Positions 50,597-54,119 of a stretch of 64,000 nucleotides of DNA are shown one piece after another; the first letter of the stretch is position 1; every line of letters starts with the position of its first letter. The DNA is from Nitrosarchaeum sp. (GTDB taxonomy: Archaea > Thermoproteota > Nitrososphaeria > Nitrososphaerales > Nitrosopumilaceae). The notes beneath the pieces are model-generated. The model saw only the letters and a program-made list of their open reading frames with translations, did not search any database and was not told where the DNA came from. The position numbers and the translations under genes were made by a program. Location: assembly GCA_003569705.1 (NCBI GenBank), contig BGOU01000007.1:1-64000 (forward strand), given 5' to 3'.

Positions 50597-50896
50597 ATGG
50601 CTACAAAAAGAAAAGCTGCCTCTAAACGTAGATCTGTTAGAAAGATTGTCGTAAAGAAAGTAGCAAGAAAAGCTGTACGAAGAAAGGCAGTAAGAAAAGC
50701 TGTCGTCAGACGTGCAGTTGGAAAAACTGTTGTAAGAAAGGCAGCAAGAAAAGCTGTTGTAAGAAAGGCAGTTGGAAGAGCTGTTGTAAGAAAGGCAGTT
50801 GGAAGAGCTGTCGTCAGACGTGCAGTTAGAAGAGCTGTCGTTAGACGTGCAGTTGGAAAAACTGTTGTAAGAAAGGCAGCAAGAAGAAGACGATAA
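50597..50896 (+). CDS. Lys/Arg/Ala/Val repeat protein, histone-H1-like
   Basis: The 99-residue protein is made almost only of Lys, Arg, Ala and Val, with no acidic residue. From about residue 30 it repeats a 9-residue unit (RKAVGRAVV and variants, 27-base DNA period). The charge is extreme. The composition resembles eukaryotic H1 tails and bacterial Hc1-like nucleoid proteins, so DNA or RNA compaction is the best guess. The promoter lies in the A/T-rich gap. A strong terminator follows. Confidence 0.65.
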   Translation: MATKRKAASKRRSVRKIVVKKVARKAVRRKAVRKAVVRRAVGKTVVRKAARKAVVRKAVGRAVVRKAVGRAVVRRAVRRAVVRRAVGKTVVRKAARRRR

Positions 50897-50968: not shown

Positions 50969-51253
50969 TCAGCTAAACATTTGGCTTGGAGGTTGTGAGT
51001 TTTTTCCTTTAAGGGTATTTTTTTCAACAGTGAATGTCTTATCTGGTGGAATGATAGATAGTTTTACAGAAGTATTAATTGCATAATGAGGAGTGCCATC
51101 AGGGTTTTTAAAATTAACAGCTTTGCCAACTCGATCTAAATCAACTTTGACTTTTACAATTGTTCCATCCTCTAATTCAAAAGATACAAAATCATTTTCA
51201 AGACGTTTGTAATCCAACATTTTGAATTCTATTTTTTCTGGATTTTCACTCAT
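50969..51253 (-). CDS. Hypothetical protein next to the collagen-like gene
   Basis: The 94-residue beta-rich protein has KMLDYKRLENDFVSFELEDG and VDLDRVGKAVNFKNPDGTPH. It lies 22 bases downstream of the collagen-like gene on the same strand, so it is probably cotranscribed. The family is unknown. Confidence 0.5.
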   Translation of the reverse strand: MSENPEKIEFKMLDYKRLENDFVSFELEDGTIVKVKVDLDRVGKAVNFKNPDGTPHYAINTSVKLSIIPPDKTFTVEKNTLKGKNSQPPSQMFS

Positions 51254-51275: not shown

Positions 51276-52886
51276 TTAGTAAAGATAACTCATTAGTTTA
51301 ATTTGTTCTTCAGTGCTAATGATATTTTTGTTAGTCATTATTTCTAAAAGTTCTTTGAATAGTGCTTTTTGTTCTATAGACATTCCACCTGCGGGACCTT
51401 TTTCTCCAGGTGGACCAGGTGGACCTCTAGGACCTGCTGGACCTACTGGACCCTGTTCGCCTATTGGACCATGTTCGCCTTGTGGGCCAAATGGACCTGT
51501 AGGACCTCTTTCACCTTGTAGACCTTGAATGCCTTGTGGACCTTGTGGACCTTTTTCTCCAGGTGGACCAGATGAACCTCTTTCACCTTGTGGGCCTTGT
51601 GGACCTTGTGGACCTTTATCGCCTAGTGGGCCAGTAGGACCTGTTAATCCTTTTTCTCCTTGCATGCCTGTTGGGCCTTTTTCTCCTTTTTCTCCCAAAG
51701 GTCCAGGAACTCCGGTTAATCCTTTTGCACCTGCAGGACCTTGTGGACCTTGTGGACCTTTTTCTCCCAGTGGACCTTCAGGGCCTCTTAGGCCTCTTTC
51801 ACCTATTAGACCAACTGGACCTTGTGGACCTTTGTCACCTAGTGGACCAGTAGGACCTGTTAATCCTTTATCGCCAGGAACTCCTTGTAGACCTAGCGGA
51901 CCTTTGTCACCTAGTGGACCAGTAGGACCTTTGTCACCTAGTGGACCAGTAGGACCTGTTAATCCTTTTTCTCCTTGTACACCTTGGGGACCTTGGGGAC
52001 CTTTTTCTCCCAGTGGACCAGTTGGACCAGTTAATCCTTTATCGCCAGGAACTCCCTGTGGACCGTTGTCACCTTTATCACCAGGAACTCCACGTAATCC
52101 GATTTGACCTTTATCACCAGTAGGACCTGTTAATCCTTTTTCTCCTTGAGAACCAAGTGAACCTCTTAGTCCTTCAGGACCTTTATCACCAGATGGTCCT
52201 GTTGAACCTTTGTCACCTTTATCACCAATAGGACCAGAAATTCCTTTATCGCCTTTATCGCCTTTATCACCAGTTATTCCTTTTTCTCCTTGTGGACCTT
52301 TATCACCAGATACACCTTTGTCACCTTGTGAACCTTTATCACCAGATACACCTTGTGGACCCGGTGGTCCTTTGTCACCTTGTGGACCTTGAATACCTTG
52401 TGGACCTTTATCACCAGATGGTCCTTTGTCACCAGATACACCTTGTGGACCAGATGGTCCTTTGCTACCTTGTGGACCAGCATAACCAGATGCAGTAAAA
52501 GAATCAGAAGTTGGTTTTGCAATACGTTGTGGTTTTGGTGATTCGATTTCAGTTCTAGTTTCATGTTTAGTTTCTTTTGATGGTTTTCTTAAAGAGACAT
52601 CAAAAACAGAATGTAATGAAGAGAATAGATCAGTAACAACAATCCAAATAGTATCAAGATCATAGACAGATGAAGGGATTGGATTTTCATCAGAACCAAG
52701 TGTCTCTGTAAATATTCCATCTTTTACTCGAAGATGAAAATGTCCCTTCCATAATGAAGAAAATTGTTTATTTCTGATTTTATCAATATGTGGCATCGAG
52801 TCAGCAATGAAAATTTGGACCTCGTAAATACCGGATTGTCTGAATGGTGATTGACCCTGAACCTCTAATCTTGGACGAGATGACAC
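51276..52886 (-). CDS. Collagen-like protein with about 120 Gly-X-Y triplets
   Basis: The 536-residue protein has an N-terminal beta domain (about 1-105, [20 protein letters not shown]), a linker, an uninterrupted Gly-X-Y stretch (about residues 134-501) rich in GPQG, GDKG, GEKG and GPTG, and a short C-terminal helix ([20 protein letters not shown]). Lys with Glu/Asp in successive triplets can stabilise the triple helix without hydroxyproline. There is no signal peptide. It may form trimeric rods; N-terminal similarity to tail-fibre-like domains is a guess. Confidence 0.8.
51384..52487. repeat. Degenerate 9-base repeat region encoding Gly-X-Y
   Basis: The DNA is a long imperfect repeat of ggaccttgtggacct-like triplet units. 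Longer copies such as aatcctttatcgccaggaac recur several times, suggesting expansion by slippage or recombination. Confidence 0.8.
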
Positions 52887-52997
52887 ATCGTTTGTGTAAA
52901 TTCCAAGTATTTCTACATTTTCAGAGATTTAGACATATTTAGAACTAGGCTCAATTCAGGATAGTATTTATCTAGACTAAATGTCCAAGTTGAGCTA

Positions 52998-54119
52998 GTG
53001 AAGAAGCTATTTCAAAAAAAATCAGTTGAAAAAGAGATAAAATCTAAAAAGACAGATCTAGTAGAAGAGACAAGTCTAGTAGATCCTGACTATAATCGTA
53101 AAAAATTATTTAAAACAGGAGTAAACTTGATGGCTGATGAAAAGCTCGAAGAGGCCGCAGTTATTTTTGAGCAGGCATTACGAATTGAGCCAAACAACAT
53201 CGAGACTTTGATGAAATTAGGCTATGCGAGATTTCACTTGGAAGAATACAGTGAAGCACTAAAGATTTATGATAAAATTTTAGATATAGATGTCACCAAC
53301 CCAGAAGCTTGGAATTTAAAAGCACTAGTCCATTATGAACAAAAAAATTATTCAAAAGCACTGGATGCAATTGAAAAAGCAGTAGAGTCAGATCCCACAT
53401 ATGGAATGGCTTGGTATAACAAAGCATGTTTTCTATCTCTAGTAAATCAAGTTCCAGAATCACTTGAAGCATTGAAACGTTCAATTGAGATTGATGTAAA
53501 AAATGCAAGAAAATCAATTAGAGATAAGGATTTCACAAATGTGAAAATAGAAGAAGGATTCAAAAGAATTGTAGAGGTAGTAGTTTTAGAATCAATCAGA
53601 CAAGGTTATCATACACTTGGGGCTATTGTTTGGACAACATTTCTAGATAAAGCTGATGCAGAAAATGCATTAAGAAAATTGCTTGAAAAGGGATTAATTG
53701 TTCAGCATGAAAAACGAGACGGTCTAAGTAAAATTCCAATATATGATCTTGCAGCAGATGTCGTAGAAAGAATGGGAAAAGAGAAAAAAGGATTATTTGG
53801 AATTACAAAAAAACAATTACCAAAACCAATCAAGAATTTAAAAGAACTCAGTCAAGCCATACAGTCAGTTAGAGAATCAATAGAAGAAGAAAATGTTGAA
53901 AAAACAATTCAAATATTTGACGAGTTTATCGACCCAACAAAATCAGGGGAGCAAATGATTGAACAATTCTTTGAAGAACATAGAGAGATTAGATTGTGGA
54001 AGATCAGATTAAAAGACAGAGGGGTAGATTATCTCATTGAAAACAAAGCCAAGATGCTAAATCTTTTTGATAATATAGAAGTCACAGTTACCAAAAAACT
54101 TAGAAACGAAATATCCTAG
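52998..54119 (+). CDS. TPR protein with C-terminal winged-helix-like region
   Basis: The 373-residue protein has about four tetratricopeptide repeats (about 35-170, AVIFEQALRIEPNNIETLMK, ALKIYDKILDIDVTNPEAWN), then a helical segment TLGAIVWTTFLDKADAENAL resembling a winged helix, and a C-terminal helical domain. The start is GTG at 52998. TPRs bind partner proteins. It is divergent from the collagen-like gene and convergent with the sulfurtransferase gene. Confidence 0.8.
   Translation: MKKLFQKKSVEKEIKSKKTDLVEETSLVDPDYNRKKLFKTGVNLMADEKLEEAAVIFEQALRIEPNNIETLMKLGYARFHLEEYSEALKIYDKILDIDVTNPEAWNLKALVHYEQKNYSKALDAIEKAVESDPTYGMAWYNKACFLSLVNQVPESLEALKRSIEIDVKNARKSIRDKDFTNVKIEEGFKRIVEVVVLESIRQGYHTLGAIVWTTFLDKADAENALRKLLEKGLIVQHEKRDGLSKIPIYDLAADVVERMGKEKKGLFGITKKQLPKPIKNLKELSQAIQSVRESIEEENVEKTIQIFDEFIDPTKSGEQMIEQFFEEHREIRLWKIRLKDRGVDYLIENKAKMLNLFDNIEVTVTKKLRNEIS

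Follow-up and report, generated by a model that had tools for sequence, protein, structure and literature searches.

A single-copy collagen-like protein of the Nitrosopumilaceae with an unbroken Gly-X-Y run and no classical signal peptide

The window analysed here is a stretch of 64,000 nucleotides of Nitrosarchaeum sp. (contig BGOU01000007.1, positions 1 to 64,000). It contains a gene for a collagen-like protein of 536 aa on the minus strand (51276..52886, GTG start), which is supported by the open reading frame, by orthologues and by a match to Pfam Collagen (PF01391, E=1.2e-60). With 201.6 bits against a cut-off of 27.2, this was the only match in the Pfam search of the protein. Four parts can be distinguished, all on the minus strand: an N-terminal domain predicted to be a beta-sandwich (aa 1–105, 52572..52886), a charged and Pro-containing linker whose length differs among orthologues (aa 106–133, 52488..52571), a run of 123 uninterrupted Gly-X-Y triplets (aa 134–502, 51381..52487) and a C-terminal tail (aa 503–536, 51279..51380). 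The final triplet of the run is GGM. An earlier note on this DNA had put the number of uninterrupted triplets at about 120, in good agreement with our count. The Nitrosarchaeum genome held no second collagen gene; its one other Pfam Collagen match stayed below the cut-off. Antisense reading frames across the collagen region (e.g. 51529–52107, plus strand) were set aside as repeat artefacts.

Orthologues were collected by scanning one genome per species, which gave 110 related stretches, of which the best 80 were used. The titles of these best 80 of 110 were nearly all Nitrosarchaeum, Nitrosopumilus, Nitrosotalea and other Nitrosopumilales or Thaumarchaeota. One record, titled Nitrososphaeraceae archaeon SCK_bin.6, carried a Nitrosarchaeum-like block with 80–96% protein identity and is probably misnamed.

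Upstream of the collagen gene lies a divergently oriented gene for a TPR protein with a weak C-terminal wHTH-like match (52998..54119, plus strand). In 77 of the best 80 of 110 loci a TPR gene adjoined the collagen gene, always in the opposite orientation and with a median gap of 126 nt; beyond it followed a rhodanese gene and then a sulfite/nitrite reductase-like gene. The TPR protein is a candidate partner or regulator. On the other side, a small conserved protein of 94 aa is encoded 22 bp downstream (50969..51253, minus strand). An operon with this gene was considered and rejected: it adjoined the collagen gene in only 23 of the 80 loci, with many contigs breaking off too soon to show it, and the spacing varied. 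The 94-aa gene occurred in Nitrosarchaeum, Nitrosotalea and others and was undetected in most Nitrosopumilus loci. A Lys/Arg-rich repeat protein of 99 aa is encoded at 50597–50896 (plus strand); in its place, Nitrosopumilus loci had a protein of KRKAAP repeats that varies in length and resembles a DNA-binding tail.

With the N-domain profile, 60 of 63 Nitrosopumilaceae genomes gave one copy each, and 335 genomes from the rest of the phylum gave none. The genomes without a match were mostly fragmented assemblies, some of them with collagen pieces, as expected if long repeats break the assembly. Any Pfam collagen match at all was recorded for 55 of the Nitrosopumilaceae genomes sampled, as against only 24 of about 243 genomes elsewhere in the phylum. 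The earlier statement that long collagen repeats are rare in archaea therefore applies outside the Nitrosopumilaceae and fails inside this family, where the gene is a near-universal, single-copy and syntenic core gene. N-domain identity to the window copy correlated with the identity of the neighbouring genes (r=0.82–0.87). Together with the shared locus, this is most simply explained by vertical inheritance from an ancestor of the family. The Nitrosopumilaceae are among the most abundant marine archaea, the family also includes abundant soil archaea, and nearly all of them keep the gene.

The comparison of run lengths proposed in the earlier note was carried out on 57 full-length proteins. 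All 57 had a single unbroken run of 84–163 triplets (median 123; 6,790 triplets in total). An orthologue from a 3.2-Mb genome, probably that of a sponge symbiont, even had 185 unbroken triplets; its linker contained about eight APQPAPPP repeats. Such length variation would be expected of a product of repeat slippage that drifts in length and composition without function, and the same could be said of one copy with frameshifts between the N-domain and the tail (G023:C1:44700-46700), which is either a decaying gene or a sequencing error. We compared Gly positions in 71 equal-length pairs with an X/Y difference of less than 50%. Gly was replaced at 0 of 8,744 sites, while 44% of the Gly codons differed synonymously and 33% of the X/Y residues differed. 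This contrast between fixed Gly residues and freely changing synonymous sites contradicts slippage, as does the conservation of both end domains, and makes drift without function very improbable. The comparison indicates strong selection on the triple helix. At a distance from the main locus, one collagen-repeat fragment was observed between N runs and fused to a wHTH-like frame (G009:C1:3500-7000); masking or misassembly probably accounts for it.

The charges in the run were strictly placed. In 56 proteins, acidic residues made up 30% of X and basic residues 34% of Y, and the reverse placement was near zero. In the window copy, GDK/GEK triplets occurred 30 times compared with 9.4 expected when X and Y were shuffled, and the axial pairs KGD/KGE occurred 5 times compared with 9.2 expected. 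It is the axial pairs that are usually credited with helix stabilisation. The dense K/E-D pairing that, for the earlier note, suggested a stable helix is hence real within triplets, while the argument for stability is weak. With KG(D/E) this scarce, stability without hydroxyproline at the growth temperature is not assured. A PF13640 dioxygenase (the family includes prolyl hydroxylases) was not found in the Nitrosarchaeum genome and was rare across the Nitrosopumilaceae, which fits a lack of hydroxyproline. Moreover, charged triplets recurred with a period of four triplets (12 residues, ~34 angstrom): the charge autocorrelation over 57 proteins was 0.42, 0.38 and 0.28 at lags of 4, 8 and 12 triplets. 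This period suggests an ordered lateral packing.

Alignments of the N-terminal domain (A1 and A2) showed 16–20 invariant residues, and an AlphaFold model built from 80 sequences gave a confident beta-sandwich (pLDDT 90.4). No significant match was found in Pfam, PHROG or NCBIfam, and a fold search of residues 1–105 against the PDB and the BFVD viral structures returned nothing at E<0.001. Among the plausible PDB matches, the ligand-binding region of SgrA (5fce) ranked first with a TM score of 0.54 and was not significant. The description of this region as a beta domain without assignment was thus borne out, also by the structure search that had been suggested for it. A 'YQGKL...YSIQF...LWSE...LGS' beta domain, a consensus that presumably belongs to bacterial surface proteins, was considered as a relative. 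This domain was scored through one real template only, a signal-bearing protein at an IMG/VR locus. With this single template, hhalign gave a probability of 84 and a score of 34.9 over 53 columns; among the controls, 60 shuffles scored at most 23.5 and 124 unrelated segments at most 16.6. The sequence comparison is a lead towards remote homology of the N-domain with a secreted 'YQGKL...LWSE' domain. The contexts differ: in the template, the domain stands behind a signal peptide, does not precede a Gly-X-Y region and has no Pfam model.

Many PHROG tail-fibre families (819, 6320 and others) matched the Gly-X-Y region, a likeness that would be explained if the gene came from a virus, for instance as a phage tail fibre. 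The likeness ends with the repeat. The end domains of the archaeal protein are unrelated to those of phage fibres, and no relative of its N-domain was found in PHROG, phage records or viral contigs. When viral contigs, phages and plasmids were searched for either the N-domain or its bacterial-type counterpart, no relatives emerged beyond the one viral-contig locus, and no viral genome with N-domain plus tail was found. As the gene is a chromosomal core gene, present in single copy across the whole family and surrounded by housekeeping genes in 77 of 80 loci, we regard a viral origin as highly unlikely.

The C-terminal tail was conserved (alignment A3), and AlphaFold2 predicted with high confidence a hairpin of two helices (H14-29 and H35-45 of A3). 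It was present in 94 of 110 genomes, exclusively on this collagen protein, and adjoins a Pro-rich segment of 13 residues. A hairpin next to a Pro-rich segment is what would be expected of a C-terminal nucleation module, and we propose that the tail may serve for trimerization and nucleation.

Upstream of the GTG codon, the reading frame stays open for 14 codons, and these codons do not encode a signal peptide. A TATA-like box, AAATACTT, lies 26 nt upstream of the GTG (52905..52912, minus strand). A similar box was found upstream in 77 of the best 80 of 110 orthologues; its distance to the start codon could be determined in 76 and was 26–28 nt. The start codon was mostly GTG and in some orthologues ATG. 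Archaeal TATA boxes sit at a characteristic distance from the transcript start. Given this distance, the spacing indicates that the mRNA is probably leaderless and that the start codon is fixed. A hydrophobic N-terminal stretch was found in none of the best 80 of 110 orthologues. The absence of a signal peptide, noted earlier from the one sequence, therefore holds across the orthologues with a start fixed by a conserved promoter box.

No LPXTG motif was found among the collagen orthologues examined, and sortase was found in 0 of 41 Nitrosopumilaceae genomes, with control genomes positive. These results bear on the name that automatic annotation would likely give the protein, that of an LPXTG-anchored adhesin of the Scl1/Scl2 type. 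Its top NCBIfam matches were indeed SclA and Lcl, and the streptococcal proteins (NF038330, NF038329) share with it a long Gly-X-Y run that lacks hydroxyproline and abounds in GEK/GDK and GPQ. Yet the NCBIfam scores remained under the curated cut-offs (SclA 312 vs 400, SclB 209 vs 325, Lcl 293 vs 500), and no NCBIfam model matched the N-domain by itself. Scl proteins have a signal peptide and, at the N-terminus, a helical V domain, and they are anchored through LPXTG. The archaeal protein has neither signal peptide nor LPXTG, and its genomes lack the sortase needed to anchor such an adhesin; an Scl-type adhesin is scarcely credible.

We found no study of this collagen-like protein in the open literature searched. 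According to a surface study of Ca. Nitrosotenuis chungbukensis (PMC13037477), 'LPXTG-anchored collagen-like adhesins' are up at low salinity and one of them is in the proteome; there, the 'collagen-like adhesin' is treated as an envelope protein and discussed with the S-layer. Because the nearest NCBIfam models are those LPXTG adhesins, a protein like the window copy may receive that name. A link of the published adhesin to this gene is not possible, since a Nitrosotenuis-like genome had both this collagen gene and a secreted collagen; the adhesin in the proteome may belong to the secreted type.

Our best overall reading, to which we give a probability of roughly 50%, is a homotrimeric rod of ~105 nm that is made in the cytosol and has a structural role. 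From the sequence, a trimeric rod is likely, and a cytosolic location with a structural role is favoured. Translation would take place in the cytosol. The C-terminal helical hairpin, together with the Pro-rich segment next to it, would probably bring three chains into register and start their zipping. The result would be a triple helix without a break, ~105 nm long (369 residues x 0.286 nm), with three beta-sandwich domains at the end opposite the tail. As a Sec signal, an LPXTG motif and a transmembrane segment are all absent, the rod would most likely remain intracellular or lie against the inner side of the envelope, and serve there as a strut, a spacer or a bundle with a structural task. 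Docking to a partner may fall to the N-domains, and the charge repeat of four triplets may guide lateral packing. The trimer, its register, the location, the partner and the structural role are the parts of this model that we infer. These cells are thin, and ~105 nm would span about half their width. That this near-universal intracellular rod acts as a cytoskeleton-like strut or ruler is a tentative extension, possible but less likely than not. A collagen geometry kept perfectly in a syntenic single copy points to a structural component that is not described in the open literature searched. If the strut or ruler is real, a collagen would serve as a core component in the cell interior. The missing export signal makes the question of an intracellular collagen directly testable.

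The serious competitor is a stalk at the surface or in the pseudo-periplasm that reaches from the membrane to the S-layer, is exported without a classical signal peptide and docks by its N-domain. We consider it possible and far more probable than the adhesin, viral or slippage explanations. To our knowledge, the collagen-like proteins that have been characterised in prokaryotes almost all belong to a surface or a virion, most of them to a surface, which counts against the cytosolic reading. The remote similarity of the N-domain to a domain of a signal-bearing protein may point the same way, as would the envelope adhesin of Nitrosotenuis. A comparable stalk is BclA of the Bacillus exosporium, which lacks a Sec signal and nevertheless arrives at the spore surface; it consists of an N-terminal targeting part, a collagen stalk and a C-terminal trimerizing module. 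The archaeal protein has the same outline, with a signal-less N-terminal part, a stalk and a C-terminal module. However, BclA begins with a short pro-region and ends in a globular jelly-roll trimer, in contrast to the beta-sandwich of ~100 aa and the helical hairpin of 34 aa found here; no globular jelly-roll (C1q-like) domain was found at the C-terminus, where the tail comprises just two predicted helices.

The surface stalk is further opposed by the lack of a hydrophobic N-terminal signal in 80 orthologues with a promoter-fixed start codon, and by a conserved neighbourhood (TPR, rhodanese, sulfite/nitrite reductase-like) without an obvious export partner. Moreover, other collagens of related genomes do use signal peptides, which supports the view that the signal-less protein is internal. 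Two such collagen-like proteins that other ammonia-oxidizing archaea secrete (L117 and L121) share Gly-X-Y repeats with the window protein and differ from it in their signal peptides, in their different or near-identical repeats and in their C-terminal domains. L117 (G033:C1:549500-555000) is a secreted protein of 1347 aa with many near-identical collagen-like repeats, interrupted at GEQRLQG and followed by Calx-beta-like and then FG-GAP-like repeats.
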